Notes under the pieces: model-generated
Databases searched by the model: none
Told to the model about the DNA's origin: nothing
The model's input: the letters and a program-made list of their open reading frames with translations, nothing else
Program-made: the position numbers and the translations under genes
Shown here: positions 1 through 12,157 of the stretch, piece after piece
How the letters are laid out: every line of letters starts with the position of its first letter
Numbering within the stretch: position 1 is the first letter of the stretch
Origin: Sphingobacteriales bacterium
Lineage (GTDB): Bacteria > Bacteroidota > Bacteroidia > Chitinophagales > CAIOSU01
Direction: 5' to 3'
Assembly: GCA_027486795.1 (NCBI GenBank)
Contig: JAIXOI010000004.1
Location: 1 to 64,000, forward strand
DNA: 64,000 nucleotides

Positions 1-51
1 ACGGCCGCACCTATCTTTACAAATGCGTACACCAAGCATGGTACACCAAAC

Positions 52-81
52 AAAAATCCCGATCACCTAAGGCAATCGGGA
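52..81 (-). terminator. Rho-independent terminator of the tracrRNA
   Basis: The inverted arms TCCCGAT and ATCGGGA (57-81) form a stem. On the minus strand it is followed by ATTTTTG, so it ends transcription coming from the anti-repeat side. Confidence 0.8.
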
Positions 82-235
82 CTCTATTTAATCCGTCAAC
101 TTATTCTAGGACGTTACATACCTTAAAATGTATTCCGTGCAAACAAAATGGGCTCTACCGAAGCAGAGCCCTAGGTCTTAGACCTTCGGCATATAGCCTT
201 ACTGTAATAAGATGACAAAAGATGGATAAATCTTT
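52..235 (-). ncRNA. tracrRNA of the type II-C CRISPR system
   Basis: On the minus strand this begins with an anti-repeat (202-232) and runs away from cas9. The plus-strand sequence at 202-232 closely matches the reverse complement of the CRISPR repeat: both share CTGTA, then GATGACAAAA, then ATGGAT, with one single-base gap on each side. The minus-strand RNA can therefore pair with crRNA made from the minus strand of the array. After the anti-repeat come an AAGGC..GCC element, a small AGGTC/GACCT hairpin, a GGGCTC..GAGCCC hairpin (about 148-170) and a rho-independent terminator. This layout (anti-repeat, nexus-like element, hairpins, U tract) is what is known for Cas9 tracrRNAs. The exact 5' end is inferred; a weak TTG and TAATCTTA pair lies upstream. 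Confidence 0.88.
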
Positions 236-323
236 CTACTTGTAAGATTAAGAATATTTCCATAAACTTCCAACAATTTTCGTATTTTAGTTTTACACAA
301 TAATCACATCTTAGGAAATATAT

Positions 324-3300
324 ATGGCAAGAATACTGGGACTAGACCTTGGCACCAATTCAATAGGTTGGGCGCTTATAGACGATGCAGAAAAAAGGAT
401 CGTCGATATTGGTGTAAGGATTTTCCCCGAAGGGGTAAACCTTGAAAAAGGTAAGGAAGTTTCTAAAAATGCCACCCGTAGGGAAAAACGTCAGCTTCGT
501 CGGCAAAACTTCAGGCGCAAGATGCGCAAGCGCATGTTGGCGAAAAATCTTCAGCAACATGGGATGTTCCCAGCTACGGATAATATTGACTTGGCTATCA
601 CCGCAACTCGCCTAAGTCCTGAAATATCCTCTTTCTTTCAGATTAACCCATACGAGTTCCGAGCGAAAGCATATCGTGGAGAAAAGTTGACGCTCATGGA
701 GCTTGGTCGCGTACTCTATCATTTTGGGCAACGCAGAGGTTATAAAGAGAATCTGCAATCGGGCAGCGACGAAGAAGGGGTTATTTTTGAGGGAAAGGAT
801 GGCAAAATTGGCATCAACGAAACCCGGCAAAAAGTACAGGAATATGGCACTTTAGGCAATTACCTGGCTCAAGTGGATACAAGGAAGGAACGCGCTCGCA
901 ACCGCTATACTACAAGGCAAATGTATATGGATGAGTTCGAGGTAATATGGGAAAAGCAAACGCAGTATTATCCCACTGTACTTACTCGTGAATTAAAAAA
1001 ACTGATTGGAGATTCTACTGATGGTTTGTTGTTTTTTCAGAGGCCCCTGCGTTCACAAAAGCATCAAATTGGTAAGTGCCCCTTTGAAAAAAATAAGCCA
1101 CGTTGCCCAGACAGTAGCTTGGACTTCGAGAACGTGAGAATGTACCAATTCATCAACAATATACGTTACGGCGATAATGCATTGGACGAACATCAACGTT
1201 CATTGGTTGTGAAATTGTTTAACACCAAGGACAAGTTTGATTTTGGACAAATAAAGAAAGCCCTAAAGTTGCCCAATGAAAACTTCAATTATGAAGATGA
1301 ACAAAAAATAGTAGGCAATAGAAGTATTAATAACCTTCGAAAAATATTCGGTGATAAACACTGGGATGCCCTAACGCCCCAAGAGCAAGAAGATATTTGG
1401 CATGCAAAGTTTTCGGCAACGACCAAAGATTGGCTAAAGACGCATGCCATGACCAAGTGGGGATTGGATGCAGAAAAGGCCGACAAGCTATCTAAATTGC
1501 GATTATCAAACGAGTATGGCAGCCTCAGTCGTAAAGCGATAAGAAACATCCTGCCTTTTTTAGAAAAAGGACATACGTATGATAAAGCAGTATTACTTGG
1601 AGGTGTAGTAAATGCCTATGGAAATACGGCATGGAACCTCCTCCCTGATGAAGGACGAGAAGATCTGATGCGCAAAATTACTAGTATCATCGAAAAGCAG
1701 CCTTATAAGCCAATAGATACCATAAAACTGTTCCTGAAAAACGAAAATGGTTTCAATGAAAAAGCCTTAACAAAATTGTACCACCATAGCCAGGATTTAA
1801 TCGAACCCGAACTACAGGCCCTATTGCCAGACCCTCCAAACCTTCGCAACCCTTTGGTACAGCAAGCCTTGTATGAATTGCGTAAGCTCGTGAATGCGAT
1901 TATTGCAAAACATGGTGAAGATGGGATTATTGAAATAATCAGGGTAGAAATGGCGCGTGAACTAAAATTGCCGAAGAAAAAACGGGATGAGATACGATTG
2001 CAGCAGTTCAAGAACGAAACCCGTAACGACAGGATGAAAACTGTGCTTGACGAGTACGGATTGGCACATTCGCTATACAACATCCAGAAACTCATTTTGT
2101 ATTACGAAAGCTGTCGTACATGCCCTTATTCCGGTAGCCAAATAGGTATAACAGACCTCTTCAAGGAATATGAGATAGAGCACATTATTCCCTATAGCAC
2201 AAGCTTGGATGATAGTTTGGCAAATAAAACGATTTGTGTTCGCCGCATCAACCAAAGCGAAAAGAGAAATTTAACCCCTTATCAATATTACCAGCGTATC
2301 GATTCAAAGAAATGGGAGGAAGTGAAGACAAGGGTCAAAAGCCTGCTACCCTACAAAAAGTACCAGAAATTTGTTTCAGAAGACAATCCTGCTCTTGACG
2401 ATTTCATACAGCGGCAATTGAACGATACTCGCTATATCAGCCGAGAAGCTGTGAACTATCTAAAAAACATTAGCAGGAAGGTAAATGTAGCACAAGGTGG
2501 TGTCACTTCTTTACTGCGACATTACTGGGGTTTGAACAGTATTCTACTATCAAATATCCGTAATCAAGATTTGCCTGACGGTGAGTATCTTGCCGCGTTG
2601 GATGGTGAGGGTCGTTTAATCGAAATTATAGCATGGGACGAACGAACCAACAAAAAAAACCGTGAACGGCTACAGAAGCTTGGGAGGGTAGTTGAAGGCA
2701 ATATAAAGAAAAGCACATTTTATCCTTTCAAAACCCGCGACGACCATCGCCATCACGCCATCGATGCACTTACGGTAGCTTGTAGCCATGCGGGTTACTT
2801 GCAGAGAATATCTACCCTCAAGGCCAAAGAGAAATTCTACCGTGACATGGAAGAACTACAATTTCCAGAACCCTGGGATACCTTTGTCAATGATGCAAAT
2901 ATGGCTATCAATCAGCTCGTGATATCATATCGGGCTCAACGTAGGGTTATTACCCCAATCAGTAAGACAATCACTAAAACGATAAACAACAAACGTATAG
3001 AGTTTAAGGCACAAGGCCTTGCTGCACGAGGCCAACTTCACAAAGAAACTATTTATGGTAAGCATATTGCACCGGGTGAAACCGAAGCATATTACCATAT
3101 TCGTAAACCCTTGGAAAACCTACAAACAGGCAAGCACATAGAGAAAATAGTGGATGCCAAGATTAGGCAGCTTATAAAAAATCGTCTCCATGAAATGGGC
3201 GTGGATACAAGCACGTCTGACTATGCTATACCAGATGGGGCATTTTTTACTATCGAAAATGACCGCAAAGTTCCGCAGCTTTTTTTACCGAACAGAAATG

Positions 3301-3800
3301 GGCCAGACGTGCCGATATTGAAAGTACGCATGAAAGAGTCTTCGTCGGGAGCGGTACAGTTAAAAGAAGGTGTAAACCAATGGGTGGAGTCAGGCAGTAA
3401 TCATCACTTAGGTGTTTACGAAAACGAAGATGGCGAGTTGTTCGAAAAGATAGTGACGTTTTGGGTAAGCGTTGAAAAAGCCAAACAAGGCTTGCCGATT
3501 ATAGACCGTGACCCTCGAGACGGTAGTAAGATGGTAGCTAGCCTCCAAATTAATGATATGTTTTTGTTAGGGCTTAGTGAAGATGTTTTTGAAGAGAACA
3601 AGCATAATCAAGATTTATTAAGCAAGCATTTATATAGAGTACAGAAGCTTTCATCTATGTACTATGTCTTTCGTCACCACTTAGCAGCAACGCTTCAAAA
3701 CCCGCTACAAGAAAAAAGTATTCGTAGCATGAAAGGCTGGAGAGAGACAAATCCGATTAAGGTGAAGGTAGATATATTGGGACGAATTGTTCGAAGCTAA
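324..3800 (+). CDS. cas9: CRISPR-associated endonuclease Cas9, type II-C
   Basis: RNA-guided DNA nuclease of 1158 residues, in the compact II-C size range. RuvC-I is LGLDLGTNSIGWAL with catalytic D8. The arginine-rich bridge helix is about residues 51-71. RuvC-II carries E542 (RVEMAR). The HNH core is EIEHIIPYS with catalytic H620, then N634 and N643. RuvC-III is HHAIDA with H811 and D814. The residue before the HNH histidine is Glu (E619), where SpCas9 and NmeCas9 have Asp; the change is conservative and I expect an active nuclease. The C-terminal part, from about residue 900, should hold the wedge and PAM-interacting domains; the PAM cannot be read from sequence. Start chosen at the ATG that places RuvC-I at the N-terminus. 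The tracrRNA is divergent upstream and cas1 follows after 155 bp. Confidence 0.97.
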   Translation: MARILGLDLGTNSIGWALIDDAEKRIVDIGVRIFPEGVNLEKGKEVSKNATRREKRQLRRQNFRRKMRKRMLAKNLQQHGMFPATDNIDLAITATRLSPEISSFFQINPYEFRAKAYRGEKLTLMELGRVLYHFGQRRGYKENLQSGSDEEGVIFEGKDGKIGINETRQKVQEYGTLGNYLAQVDTRKERARNRYTTRQMYMDEFEVIWEKQTQYYPTVLTRELKKLIGDSTDGLLFFQRPLRSQKHQIGKCPFEKNKPRCPDSSLDFENVRMYQFINNIRYGDNALDEHQRSLVVKLFNTKDKFDFGQIKKALKLPNENFNYEDEQKIVGNRSINNLRKIFGDKHWDALTPQEQEDIWHAKFSATTKDWLKTHAMTKWGLDAEKADKLSKLRLSNEYGSLSRKAIRNILPFLEKGHTYDKAVLLGGVVNAYGNTAWNLLPDEGREDLMRKITSIIEKQPYKPIDTIKLFLKNENGFNEKALTKLYHHSQDLIEPELQALLPDPPNLRNPLVQQALYELRKLVNAIIAKHGEDGIIEIIRVEMARELKLPKKKRDEIRLQQFKNETRNDRMKTVLDEYGLAHSLYNIQKLILYYESCRTCPYSGSQIGITDLFKEYEIEHIIPYSTSLDDSLANKTICVRRINQSEKRNLTPYQYYQRIDSKKWEEVKTRVKSLLPYKKYQKFVSEDNPALDDFIQRQLNDTRYISREAVNYLKNISRKVNVAQGGVTSLLRHYWGLNSILLSNIRNQDLPDGEYLAALDGEGRLIEIIAWDERTNKKNRERLQKLGRVVEGNIKKSTFYPFKTRDDHRHHAIDALTVACSHAGYLQRISTLKAKEKFYRDMEELQFPEPWDTFVNDANMAINQLVISYRAQRRVITPISKTITKTINNKRIEFKAQGLAARGQLHKETIYGKHIAPGETEAYYHIRKPLENLQTGKHIEKIVDAKIRQLIKNRLHEMGVDTSTSDYAIPDGAFFTIENDRKVPQLFLPNRNGPDVPILKVRMKESSSGAVQLKEGVNQWVESGSNHHLGVYENEDGELFEKIVTFWVSVEKAKQGLPIIDRDPRDGSKMVASLQINDMFLLGLSEDVFEENKHNQDLLSKHLYRVQKLSSMYYVFRHHLAATLQNPLQEKSIRSMKGWRETNPIKVKVDILGRIVRS

Positions 3801-3955
3801 CTAAGTTAAGAAAATATTTTACTCTCGCAACCATCGAACGATAATCGAGGCATTTGGTAGTTACCTGTAGGTGTGATTCCTATGTTGGGCGAATCCCATT
3901 TTATTCGCTTTAAGGGTATTGACAATTGCATATTTTATTAACATCTTGTTGGTAT

Positions 3956-4846
3956 ATGCTAAAGCGTTCACTTTTCATATCCAGTCCAGGACACGTCAAC
4001 ATCAGCAAAAAACAACTGGTAGTAACATCCAAGGAAACAGGCGAAACCAAAACCGCCCCGGTTGAAGATTTGGGATGTTTGGTGCTTGAGCACCCGCAAA
4101 CCACCATTACTCTTGTAGCCTTACAAGAGCTAGCAGCCTACAACGTTGGTGTAATAATATGCGATCAAAAGCATATGCCCACTTCTATGCTGTTGCACCT
4201 AGACTCACATTATATACAAACGGAACGATTCCGAAATCAAATTGAAGCAAGTGAGCCATTACGGAAGCAATTGTGGCAACAAACGATCAAGTCCAAGCTT
4301 ATCAATCAGGCAGGCTTGTTAGATCGGGTCGGAGGCGACGGAAGCGCTTTGCGCCATATTGCCACAGGTGTGAAAAGTGGTGATACGGATAATAGAGAGG
4401 CGCAAGGGGCTAGACGTTATTGGGCAGCATTGTTCAATGAAGGATATAGGCGAGAAAGATTTGGCCCCTCTCCCAACGAAAAGCTTAACTATGGATATTC
4501 AATCATCCGTGCAGCAATGGCAAGGGCTTTGACAAGCACGGGGCTGTTACCCACTTTAGGTATTTTTCATAAAAACAAGTATAATGCGTTTTGCTTAGCA
4601 GACGATATAATGGAGCCATATCGCCCATTCGTAGATTTAGCTGTATGGGAATTAGTAGAAGAAAATGGGTTAGGTGATGAGGTCACCCAAACAGACAAGG
4701 CAAAGCTTGTGGGCTTATTAGCGAGGGATGTAAGGATCAATGGACAAACCAGTCCTATGATGGTGGCAATGGCTCACACAGCGGCAAGCTTATCAGCAGC
4801 TTTCAGTTCAGAGAAACGCAAGCTCGCTTATCCTGAATGGCTTTGA
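3956..4846 (+). CDS. cas1: Type II CRISPR-associated endonuclease Cas1
   Basis: Integrase subunit of the spacer-acquisition complex. I start at the ATG at 3956 (MLKRSLFISS), where the family usually begins, rather than 30 bp upstream; this gives 296 residues. The conserved metal-binding residues are visible: E148 in NREAQGARRYW, H205 in LGIFHKNKYN and D216/D217 in LADDIMEPYRP. It should act with Cas2 (24 bp downstream) to insert about 30-bp spacers. No csn2 or cas4 is present, which with the short cas9 places the locus in II-C. Confidence 0.96.
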   Translation: MLKRSLFISSPGHVNISKKQLVVTSKETGETKTAPVEDLGCLVLEHPQTTITLVALQELAAYNVGVIICDQKHMPTSMLLHLDSHYIQTERFRNQIEASEPLRKQLWQQTIKSKLINQAGLLDRVGGDGSALRHIATGVKSGDTDNREAQGARRYWAALFNEGYRRERFGPSPNEKLNYGYSIIRAAMARALTSTGLLPTLGIFHKNKYNAFCLADDIMEPYRPFVDLAVWELVEENGLGDEVTQTDKAKLVGLLARDVRINGQTSPMMVAMAHTAASLSAAFSSEKRKLAYPEWL

Positions 4847-4870: not shown

Positions 4871-5215
4871 ATGGCAGACCATAATACAAGGCTAAATGCC
4901 TACCGAATTATGTGGCTATTTGTCTTTTTTGACCTACCTACGGGTACACCCAAAGAACGTAAAGCATATGCTACGTTTCGCAAGAAATTACAAAATGACG
5001 GTTTCGCCATGATGCAATACTCCGTGTATGTGCGTCATTGTGCAAGTGGCGAAAGTGCTGACGTGCATGAAAGCCGCGTAAAGGGATTTATGCCCTCGCT
5101 TGGACAGGTAAGCATACTGCGGATTACCGATAAGCAGTACAGCCTGATTTCAAACTACTGGGGAAAGAAGAGCGATCCTTTGCCTGAAGGTCCTAAGCAA
5201 CTCGAATTCTTCTGA
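4871..5215 (+). CDS. cas2: CRISPR-associated protein Cas2
   Basis: Structural partner of Cas1, 114 residues. The ferredoxin-like beta-1 strand is FVFFDLPTGTPKERK and the following region has MMQYSVYVRHC. The start keeps the LNAYRIMW segment, which I recall as conserved before the first strand in Bacteroidota II-C Cas2; an internal ATG at 4910 is the alternative. It ends 105 bp before the first repeat, so cas9-cas1-cas2 read toward the array while the crRNA is made on the opposite strand. Confidence 0.95.
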   Translation: MADHNTRLNAYRIMWLFVFFDLPTGTPKERKAYATFRKKLQNDGFAMMQYSVYVRHCASGESADVHESRVKGFMPSLGQVSILRITDKQYSLISNYWGKKSDPLPEGPKQLEFF

Positions 5216-5320
5216 TAAGAAACTGTATTACAGTTTAGTATAAGGCAAAATAAACCTCACTTTTCTCTATGCCAAACTTACGTCTAAGTAACTGATAACT
5301 AGAAGGTAATAAGGCCAACT
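5216..5320. promoter_or_regulatory. Probable CRISPR leader (integration side)
   Basis: AT-rich spacer between cas2 and the first, perfect repeat. It starts with a palindrome, AAACTGTA-T-TACAGTTT at 5220-5236. Positions 5286-5313 hold four weak 7-bp units ending in TAAC or similar. I call this the leader side because the only altered repeat is at the other end of the array. If so, the leader lies at the 3' end of the transcript, as I recall being reported for some other II-C systems. This is inference. Confidence 0.5.
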
Positions 5321-7861
5321 AATATCGTTAATCCATTTTTGTCATCAAACTACAGCGTGAACGTTTATCTGTACCCTCAGCTTCATAATATCGTTAATCC
5401 ATTTTTGTCATCAAACTACAGCTTTCTGCTCCTTCTGCCAAGCAATCATTTCAATATCGTTAATCCATTTTTGTCATCAAACTACAGCTAGCGTGGCGCA
5501 GCACAGTGTGCTGGTGAGAATATCGTTAATCCATTTTTGTCATCAAACTACAGCATCGGCAATGCTCATGGTTTCGGGCACGGTAATATCGTTAATCCAT
5601 TTTTGTCATCAAACTACAGCTATGGAAGGTTGGGCAACCAACAGGCTACCAATATCGTTAATCCATTTTTGTCATCAAACTACAGCTATACAAATCAACC
5701 CAATCACAAAAAATACAATATCGTTAATCCATTTTTGTCATCAAACTACAGCGACTGAATCAGTTAGGGCACCAAGACTTTCAATATCGTTAATCCATTT
5801 TTGTCATCAAACTACAGCCAAAGATGTGATGATAGCAGCAATGGCCGTAATATCGTTAATCCATTTTTGTCATCAAACTACAGCAGCATGGAAACAAGCA
5901 AGGCCGAAGCAAATAATATCGTTAATCCATTTTTGTCATCAAACTACAGCGTGTCATAGTATCCACCAAAGTAAGTTTCAAATATCGTTAATCCATTTTT
6001 GTCATCAAACTACAGCGCAACCCGACTCGCGAAAAGATGGTAGTGGAATATCGTTAATCCATTTTTGTCATCAAACTACAGCATTGATGGAAAGGCCAAA
6101 AATGGCAGTTTGAATATCGTTAATCCATTTTTGTCATCAAACTACAGCCTATAGTAGCTAGACTGAACGGGTAAATTAAATATCGTTAATCCATTTTTGT
6201 CATCAAACTACAGCGAAACCGTGTCTTCAACTAAAAAGTCACCAAATATCGTTAATCCATTTTTGTCATCAAACTACAGCACAAAGTGAGTGAGGGCTTA
6301 AACTCTTTAAAATATCGTTAATCCATTTTTGTCATCAAACTACAGCAACTTCAATAAGATGCTTCTCGCTTTCAAGAATATCGTTAATCCATTTTTGTCA
6401 TCAAACTACAGCCAAAGTTCAGCTATTTCATTTAGTGCGTGTAATATCGTTAATCCATTTTTGTCATCAAACTACAGCTTCCATAATGGATAGTGTTCCC
6501 GAAGGAGAAATATCGTTAATCCATTTTTGTCATCAAACTACAGCCAGCCTTGGAACGATAGCAAAAACAACATAATATCGTTAATCCATTTTTGTCATCA
6601 AACTACAGCCCGCTCCGGGTAGCATCCCATCTTTGTTGGAATATCGTTAATCCATTTTTGTCATCAAACTACAGCTACATAGTCGGTCCTAGAAAATGGC
6701 AGCAAATATCGTTAATCCATTTTTGTCATCAAACTACAGCGATATTGGATTGACAACGAAATGGTTGCGAAATATCGTTAATCCATTTTTGTCATCAAAC
6801 TACAGCAAACAATGCGGTAGCCGAAAAAACAAAGGTAATATCGTTAATCCATTTTTGTCATCAAACTACAGCATCGGGCAATAAGCGGTGGGTAGTGCCC
6901 CCAATATCGTTAATCCATTTTTGTCATCAAACTACAGCCAAGGTAAGTGTGTTCGGTACTTGTATAGAATATCGTTAATCCATTTTTGTCATCAAACTAC
7001 AGCTATGTCGCCGTGCTGCCAATCGCCGTGCTCAATATCGTTAATCCATTTTTGTCATCAAACTACAGCCAACGTAAGTGTGTTCGGTACTTGTATAGTA
7101 ATATCGTTAATCCATTTTTGTCATCAAACTACAGCAGTAGTAGTAAAGCCTTGCACAACACTACTAATATCGTTAATCCATTTTTGTCATCAAACTACAG
7201 CGCACGCGGGTAAGCGTATCAACCAACGTACAATATCGTTAATCCATTTTTGTCATCAAACTACAGCGGCAATACTGGCGGGGTGTAAAGGTCAAATAAT
7301 ATCGTTAATCCATTTTTGTCATCAAACTACAGCGAACGATATCAATACGCCCCATGCATCCGCAATATCGTTAATCCATTTTTGTCATCAAACTACAGCC
7401 CATGTCCATCTGCGCTCCAATCCATAAAGAATATCGTTAATCCATTTTTGTCATCAAACTACAGCTGGCTGCGATGAATTGGCTGGCACTAACGGAATAT
7501 CGTTAATCCATTTTTGTCATCAAACTACAGCTGTATCGCCACAATCTATAAAATCATCGGGAATATCGTTAATCCATTTTTGTCATCAAACTACAGCTGG
7601 CCCATCTGTCCATCCACCGCAACATCAAATATCGTTAATCCATTTTTGTCATCAAACTACAGCAAACCACATGGAAAAGCAAATCGAAGCCGCAATATCG
7701 TTAATCCATTTTTGTCATCAAACTACAGCTTACGGCATCAGGGGTACGCTTGAGGTGCTAATATCGTTAATCCATTTTTGTCATCAAACTACAGCTGAAT
7801 GGCAGACATACCACCCACACCACGTAATATCGTTAATCCATTTTTGTCATCAAACTACAAT
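5321..7861 (-). CRISPR. CRISPR array, 39 repeats and 38 spacers, type II-C
   Basis: The repeat is 36 bp. In crRNA sense (minus strand) it begins GCTGTAGTTTGATGAC and ends TTAACGATATT. I located all 39 copies; 35 spacers are 30 bp and three are 29 bp (spacers 19, 21 and 25, counted from 5321). The last copy (7826-7861) differs only in its final two plus-strand bases (GC to AT), a typical leader-distal repeat. The tracrRNA anti-repeat fixes the crRNA strand as minus. Spacer 25 (6939-6967) and spacer 27 (7070-7099) are near-identical. Spacer 26 contains CGCCGTGCT twice, and spacer 28 has self-complementary ends AGTAGT and ACTACT. The 66-bp unit keeps reading frames open, so open frames through the array are not genes. 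No spacer obviously matches this window. Confidence 0.98.
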
Positions 7862-7868
7862 GAGTTGC

Positions 7869-8111
7869 TTATTGAAGCGGGCGGCTACGTTCTTCAGTAA
7901 AATCAAATAGCTCCTTAACCTCAATACCAAGAGCATTAGCAATTTTGTACAATGTAAGGGAAGTTGGATTAATGCGTCCTTTTTCTATTGGAATCAAGTT
8001 AGACTTCTCGATGTCACACAAGTAGCCCAACTCCTTACTAGTCAATCCCTTTTTTTTCCGGTACTTCGTGATGTTCTTACCTACTGAAATAAGATATTCC
8101 TTCTCATCCAT
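7869..8111 (-). CDS. Small XRE-family HTH transcriptional regulator
   Basis: An 80-residue single-domain HTH_3 (Cro/CI type) protein. The helix-turn-helix covers about residues 11-66: KNITKYRKKKGLTSKELG, a recognition region around IEKSNLIPIEKGRINPTS, then LTLYKIANALGIEVKELFDF. Its stop codon is 7 bp from the terminal CRISPR repeat and it is transcribed in the crRNA sense, so read-through would produce pre-crRNA. A palindrome (8158-8177) lies 46 bp upstream and is a likely autoregulatory operator. Whether it controls the CRISPR locus is inference; similar lone XRE proteins are common in Bacteroidota. Confidence 0.85.
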   Translation of the reverse strand: MDEKEYLISVGKNITKYRKKKGLTSKELGYLCDIEKSNLIPIEKGRINPTSLTLYKIANALGIEVKELFDFTEERSRPLQ

Positions 8112-10756: not shown

Positions 10757-11971
10757 CTACCCAATTATCCGCTCATGTTCCGCATCTAGCGCATCACTTT
10801 GTAAACTATCAAGATAGATTTGTGTCGTCTTAATATTTTGGTGCCCCAGCAGTTCAGATATATTCGCTACTGGAATATTCAAATTCTTCGCCTGGGTAGC
10901 AAAAGAATGCCGACTCACATAACTGGTAAGGTTTTCTTCAATACCACACATCTCCGCAATCTTTTTCAACCGCCGATTAAAACGACTTCTCGCCCACTGA
11001 ATTTCTTTGTAACGCTCTGAGGGGTCTTCTCGAGTAATAATAGGGAAAATGAAATCCTCTCTCCCTTTGCCGTGCAAATAGGTTTTCAAAAGCTCCGCCA
11101 CCTTTTCAGTTATCTTAACATTATAAGGATGGTCCGTCTTCTGCCGTTGATATAGGATACGCCCATCTACAATGTTCATCACTTGCAAGTGAGCCAGGTC
11201 AGTAAAAGACATGCCTCGCATGTAGAAACTAAACAAGAAATAGTTACGGGCATGGGATAATGGTGTGCCAGCTGGCAGCTTGAAACTCCGAATCCGCTCT
11301 ATGGCATCCATGCTAATTGCCCGCTTCTGGGTTTGGGTGGATTTAATCTGATAATGTTCGAAAGGGTAGAGTTCCTTATCCACTGCTCCACTCTTGATCG
11401 CTTTGTTGTAAATTGCACGAATCGTGCGCATGTAAACTGACAAACCATTGTAACTATTGCCTTTTGCCAAATGAGCCTTCTCAAACTTATTGAGAAACGC
11501 ATAGTTCAATTCGAGAAAACCCAAATCCTTTCCATGGCAAAAAGTAGAAAGCACCGCAACAACCTGCTTATACGCCCTGGCATTGCCAATACGCTTCGCC
11601 TCAATCATTTCATCAATCAACCCATCAGTAAAGGTAAAAAACGATGACTTCTTTGACCTTCCTTCAATAAGCTCTTTTATCTCTTTTGCCGAACAATTTG
11701 CAAGCTTATGTTGCTCATGCAGCTTGGTAATAACATCGAGCGCTTCAGAGCGCTTTTTGGCAAACATGTTATTAAGCCGTTGCACCGATTCCGTACCGCG
11801 GTAAGACGTATTTACCTTCTTGGCCCTATCATCCCAGTCTTTTTCACGGAACGAATATCCAGTGGTAATCTGGGCGGTTTCCCTATCCTTAATGATTCGG
11901 AGGAGAAGCGGGTAGGTATCATCGGGCTTTTTACGCCGCTTATCCAAAGAGAGAATTACGTTCGCTTTCAT
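10757..11971 (-). CDS. Tyrosine recombinase/integrase of a Bacteroidota genomic island
   Basis: Site-specific integrase, about 405 residues from the ATG at 11971 (MKANVILSLDKRRKKPDD), the usual start of this family; an upstream extension is possible. The order is an N-terminal arm-binding domain, a SAM-like core-binding domain (from FFTFTDGLIDEMIEAK), then the catalytic domain. The Arg I motif is in FYMRGMSFTDLAHL, and Arg II with His in YVSRHSFATQAK. LLGHQ and the nucleophilic Tyr in TTQIYLDSL follow. It sits 140 bp from a tRNA-Arg 3' fragment, so it most likely inserted the element at that tRNA. Confidence 0.93.
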   Translation of the reverse strand: MKANVILSLDKRRKKPDDTYPLLLRIIKDRETAQITTGYSFREKDWDDRAKKVNTSYRGTESVQRLNNMFAKKRSEALDVITKLHEQHKLANCSAKEIKELIEGRSKKSSFFTFTDGLIDEMIEAKRIGNARAYKQVVAVLSTFCHGKDLGFLELNYAFLNKFEKAHLAKGNSYNGLSVYMRTIRAIYNKAIKSGAVDKELYPFEHYQIKSTQTQKRAISMDAIERIRSFKLPAGTPLSHARNYFLFSFYMRGMSFTDLAHLQVMNIVDGRILYQRQKTDHPYNVKITEKVAELLKTYLHGKGREDFIFPIITREDPSERYKEIQWARSRFNRRLKKIAEMCGIEENLTSYVSRHSFATQAKNLNIPVANISELLGHQNIKTTQIYLDSLQSDALDAEHERIIG

Positions 11972-12111
11972 GGGTGTATTTCTATAACTGCACAAACATT
12001 GCACAAACAAATTGTCAATTCGCATGGAACCATACTGAACCGCACGATTCACAAAGCATTGAAAATCAACAATTACAAAGATACGAAAGAGTGTTTAAAA
12101 GGGCAATACCC

Positions 12112-12157
12112 CTGCCTTCTAAGCAGACGGTCATGGGTTCGAATCCCGTCGCGATCA
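12112..12157 (+). other. tRNA-Arg(UCU) 3' fragment, probable attR of the island
   Basis: The sequence contains the anticodon loop CTTCTAA (anticodon TCT), the 3' anticodon strand GCAGA, a T arm with TTCGAAT closed by ATGGG/CCCGT, the 3' acceptor strand CGCGATC and a discriminator A. No matching 5' acceptor strand (GATCGCG) or D arm lies upstream, and pairing fails at position 27, so homology stops inside the anticodon stem. A tRNA 3' half next to a tyrosine integrase is the expected end of an integrated element. Because the fragment reads left to right, the intact tRNA and the other end should lie to the left, outside the window. Confidence 0.75.

Follow-up and report, generated by a model that had tools for sequence, protein, structure and literature searches.

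At the beginning of the window, by which we mean the whole stretch of 64,000 nucleotides that was analysed (contig JAIXOI010000004.1 of a Sphingobacteriales bacterium), lies a type II-C CRISPR-Cas9 locus made of a putative tracrRNA, cas9, cas1, cas2 and a CRISPR array (Table 1). The assignment to type II-C comes from a cas9 gene that encodes both HNH and RuvC domains and adjoins cas1 and cas2, and from a tracrRNA anti-repeat that is complementary to the crRNA repeat. No csn2 or cas4 ORF was found between cas9 and the array, in a contig that begins at window base 1. The locus is placed at the extreme start of this contig (C51; window 1-324), and nothing upstream of the tracrRNA falls within the sequence. 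Outside the array, no stretch resembles the repeat as well as the anti-repeat does (score 36, the maximum of the shuffles being 32), and the strand that carries the putative tracrRNA folds well beyond its shuffles (z -5.7). Parsing of the array gave repeats of 36 nt, the 38 full ones with zero substitutions, and spacers of 30 nt (35 of them) or 29 nt (3). Beyond the last repeat, a small Cro/C1-type HTH gene (7869-8111, minus strand) ends 8 nt away, so there is almost no leader space on that side.

Table 1. Features of the CRISPR-Cas9 locus in the window.
Feature	Position	Strand	Basis or remarks
Putative tracrRNA	50..232, ends approximate	-	anti-repeat, folding and sequence
Anti-repeat of the tracrRNA	202-230	-	
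Nexus-like hairpin of the tracrRNA		-	AAGGCTATATGCCG
Hairpin of the tracrRNA	~150-171	-	
Terminator-like hairpin of the tracrRNA	~57-80	-	
cas9	324..3800	+	1158 aa; Pfam RuvC_III, HNH_4, Cas9_a; TIGR01865, E 4.9e-192
cas1	3926..4846	+	PF01867, E 1.9e-26
cas2	4871..5215	+	PF09827, E 1.5e-17
Probable leader	5216..5320	+	ends in AGAAGGTAATAAGGCCAACT at the first repeat; likeness to related junctions
CRISPR array	5321..7861	- (crRNA sense)	39 repeats and 38 spacers; array parsing and anti-repeat
Spacer 25, probably the newer copy	6939..6967 (29 nt)	-	CAAGGTAAGTGTGTTCGGTACTTGTATAG; crRNA 3' end CTTACCTTG
Spacer 26	7004..7033	-	unrelated, between the twins
Spacer 27, probably the older copy	7070..7099 (30 nt)	-	CAACGTAAGTGTGTTCGGTACTTGTATAGT; crRNA 3' end CTTACGTTG
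Last repeat	7826-7861		degenerate

Two spacers of this array, 25 and 27, are nearly the same. They are identical at 28 of 29 aligned bases, the mismatch being at base 4, counting from the left repeat (G in spacer 25, C in spacer 27), and spacer 27 carries an extra T at its right, PAM-distal end. This one-base difference and the extra base are exactly as claimed in the original prediction, and the common PAM-side boundary that it gave to the two spacers is also recovered by the parsing of the array. When all 703 spacer pairs were scored in both orientations, this pair reached 27 and the runner-up 12, which excludes a chance likeness.

The position of the mismatch acquires its meaning from the direction in which the array is read. 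The orientation of the anti-repeat, with nexus-like and terminator-like hairpins lying 3' of it on the minus strand, places the crRNA on the minus strand. Guides of type II systems have their PAM-proximal end at the 3' side, next to the 5' end of the repeat, and it is thus the left edge of every spacer that faces the PAM. The difference at base 4 thus corresponds to position 4 of the seed, as had been predicted along with the crRNA sense, the seed length being assumed for the window Cas9 from that of other Cas9 proteins. Spacers 25 and 27 therefore have what one looks for in an escape-type pair, namely the same PAM-side edge and a difference within the seed of this assumed length.

The order in which the two spacers were gained depends on the position of the leader, which probably lies on the cas2 side, at the 5321 end, because of the motif found there, the degenerate repeat at the far end and the published II-C data. 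Related arrays of the same repeat type have in common a junction motif on their cas2 side (e.g., ATCAGAAGGAAACAAGCCAACT), to which AGAAGGTAATAAGGCCAACT in the window is similar, while the far end of the array has no likeness to it; in an ungapped comparison with the family matrix, the window leader is a moderate match only, at rank 68 of 63,976 plus-strand positions. Among 110 arrays with at least 5 repeats, the terminal repeat is off consensus at the crRNA-5' end in 35 and at the opposite end in 1. The window also resembles the type II-C system of R. anatipestifer, in which the tracrRNA is upstream of cas9, the leader is between cas2 and the first repeat, and new spacers, mostly of 30 bp, enter at this same cas2-side position with a requirement for Cas1 and Cas2 (PMC6008519). 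With that of F. columnare it shares 36-nt repeats, an array transcribed in the direction of the leader and spacers whose PAM end faces it, but there the PAM is established (NNNNNTAAA) and acquisition has been observed (PMC8092290). By comparison with related arrays, the window has the same arrangement, with the leader at the cas2 end and the PAM-proximal spacer edge toward it. Spacer 25 would then be newer than spacer 27, an order that had been proposed on condition of a leader at 5321 and that these data support.

We then turn to the arrays found near the cas9 genes of relatives from the same order, class and phylum, which provide 120 II-C arrays and 3,524 spacers. Near pairs were defined as non-redundant pairs with 1-3 mismatches and edges within 1 nt, and as the cut-offs were chosen while viewing the data, several are reported. 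Array L157 was dropped, being a repeat-coding region and not a CRISPR, and L146 was set aside as tandem duplicates, the figures that include it being given as well. This last array (II-C, G557:C1) contains many adjacent exact spacer duplicates together with same-length variants carrying scattered changes, and it has the look of copies made in tandem that later mutated, unlike the window pair. Without it, the survey contains 38 identical pairs and 15 near pairs. In four arrays (L069, L116, L132 and L159), there are spacer pairs equal in sequence but with a length or an edge off by 1 nt, which suggests the re-acquisition of an unmutated protospacer.

That spacers 25 and 27 are two separate acquisitions is well supported by the excess of near pairs over drift, their rare synteny and their random-like length differences. 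Internal repeats in the survey are off consensus at 69 of 139,477 bases, a rate from which about 1 near pair (with at most 3 mismatches) is expected after duplication, against the 15 observed, although this rate may be a lower bound if repeats are more constrained than spacers. Adjacency or synteny is seen in 1 of the 15 near pairs but in 19 of the 38 identical ones (Fisher p 0.004), and 4 of the 15 near pairs are of unequal length, which is near the 32% of random spacer pairs. Duplication of the unit within the array, with later mutation of one copy, had been named beforehand as what would overturn the re-acquisition reading; whether by recombination or by replication slippage, it fits poorly. 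Indeed, it would require that two units be copied, that the extra spacer 26 be lost again and that a substitution and a 1-nt indel occur, and yet the 38 full repeats are unchanged; the twins have neither equal unit length (29 vs 30 nt) nor duplicated neighbours, an unrelated spacer lying between them, and the near pairs of the survey have no block synteny. We thus consider duplication unlikely, even though L146 has just this look, with adjacent equal-length copies and scattered changes, and even though SpacerPlacer, which sorts repeated spacers into duplication, rearrangement, reacquisition and independent insertion, places 86% of its duplication candidates in the first of these classes and about 1% in each of the last two; its labels pool almost identical spacers and make no use of single-base positions (PMC11472070). 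A sequencing or assembly error is extremely improbable: the assembly containing the window is in 59 contigs, but the error would have to account for the substitution and the length difference alike, and the longest exact stretch common to units 25 and 27 is only 39 nt, barely above any repeat, which makes an assembly artefact unlikely.

The near pairs of the survey also differ at particular positions. In the 12 that have 1-2 mismatches, 15 of the 18 mismatches fall within the 12 positions nearest to the PAM edge (1-12), where 7.3 are expected, and the mean mismatch position is 8.2 (permutation p ~0.0002, and ~0.0004 without the window pair). The bias persists when any one array is omitted, when one pair per array is kept and when each pair contributes its most distal mismatch alone. 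With L146 added, positions 1-12 hold 20 of 27 mismatches (p 0.0005), or 19 of 26 if the window pair is omitted (p 0.0016); L146 by itself displays no seed bias (p 0.33). The bias fades as more mismatches are allowed, with a mean position of 12.7 at up to 4. A seed bias of near pairs fits escape, since in a Cas9 challenge experiment the target mutations of the phages were confined to the PAM and the seed (PMC10132644). As for the window pair taken alone, a difference placed at random would fall within positions 1-12 of 29 in about 41% of cases, so position 4 is mild evidence only. A partial literature search found no earlier study of how the differences between near-identical spacers of an array are placed relative to the seed.

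The target of the twin spacers was looked for in several sets of sequences. No protospacer of either variant was found in the bacterium's own genome, in 60 relatives or 398 genomes of the order at up to 3 mismatches, or in plasmids, and the phage records gave chance-level matches only. In viral contigs, three 18-mers and four reading-frame patterns recovered no protospacer; one 18-mer match (L085) was rejected as chance, as its similarity to the spacer breaks off shortly beyond the matched bases. No phage was matched when all the spacers of the array were used as a single query, nor with one spacer from each surveyed pair. The G/C change would be silent in the minus-strand frame IQVPNTLTL; no match for this frame was found, and no conclusion rests on it. 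The four genus mates in the search gave no Cas9 match, no array with the window repeat core was recovered from the genome contigs, and a search of these contigs for Cas9 relatives found none. No sister array was thus obtained from the genomes covered.

The difference between spacers 25 and 27 is best explained by seed escape, and we hold it probable that one protospacer was taken twice, a variant at seed position 4 having evaded spacer 27 before being taken again as spacer 25. Spacer 27 would first have been acquired from a phage or another mobile element; a variant of this element with a single change at seed position 4 and the same PAM would no longer have been stopped by it, and Cas1-Cas2 would then have inserted the altered protospacer next to the leader, on the 5321 side. 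What is observed in support of this sequence of events is the two spacers themselves, the crRNA strand, the seed position, the shared edge, the order relative to the probable leader and the seed bias of the survey. On the other side, the pairs of equal sequence that differ in length or edge imply that re-acquisition is not always tied to a seed change. Of the original prediction, re-acquisition against a seed-escape phage, the part concerning separate acquisitions is thus sustained, in line with the seed-biased near pairs of the 120 II-C arrays, whereas that concerning escape followed by re-uptake stays at the level of a probable history, neither a protospacer nor a sister array having been recovered from the sequences searched.

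There is a smaller but appreciable likelihood that the array sampled, in independent events, two variants of a single phage lineage that were circulating together, the seed change being due to selection by other hosts or to neutral drift. Such variants would leave an identical trace, and as no target was found, escape from the cell's own spacer 27 is indistinguishable from the sampling of two circulating variants. Mismatch-free pairs from the same protospacer also occur, and the weaker seed bias of pairs with more mismatches is as in ordinary phage divergence. However, neutral sampling should give uniform mismatch positions, which is not what the pairs with 1-2 mismatches display, although phages selected by other hosts would still be compatible with their bias. 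It is very unlikely that the twins derive from two paralogous or repeated sites of one element; these sites would have to agree in their PAM and at 28 of 29 bases, and they would give no cause for a seed bias across arrays. Going beyond escape itself, a bolder proposal, rather unlikely but less so than paralogous sites, is that type II-C arrays update a failing spacer in place, weak residual Cas9 cutting at the seed-mismatched site returning that very site to Cas1-Cas2. If this were true, the same protospacer would be taken again far above a chance choice among the many PAM sites of a phage; the 15 near pairs and several same-sequence pairs of unequal length among the 3,524 spacers are compatible with it, and also with acquisition hot spots.

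Escape followed by a new acquisition has been proposed from natural arrays for the type I-C array of Legionella pneumophila ST222 and the element LME-1, where spacer pairs are directed against the same region, the older being mismatched in the PAM or the seed and the newer fully matched (PMC5071653). The Legionella case differs by its priming, its known target and its overlapping protospacers; the window pair is type II-C and has the same edge. It is a new type II-C instance, with its precedent of escape then re-acquisition in Legionella type I-C. If seed escape is the right reading, the array holds its own record of phage escape, readable without any phage sequence, and near pairs pooled from many arrays could give an in-nature estimate of the seed location for uncharacterised Cas9 proteins. 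It would also call for caution before near-identical spacers are merged as duplicates in reconstructions of spacer history. Further along the window, a tyrosine recombinase gene (10757-12052, minus strand) with Arm, SAM-like and Phage_integrase domains adjoins a weak tRNA call (12085-12157, plus strand), and the region 10757-12157 is possibly a tRNA-integrated island.
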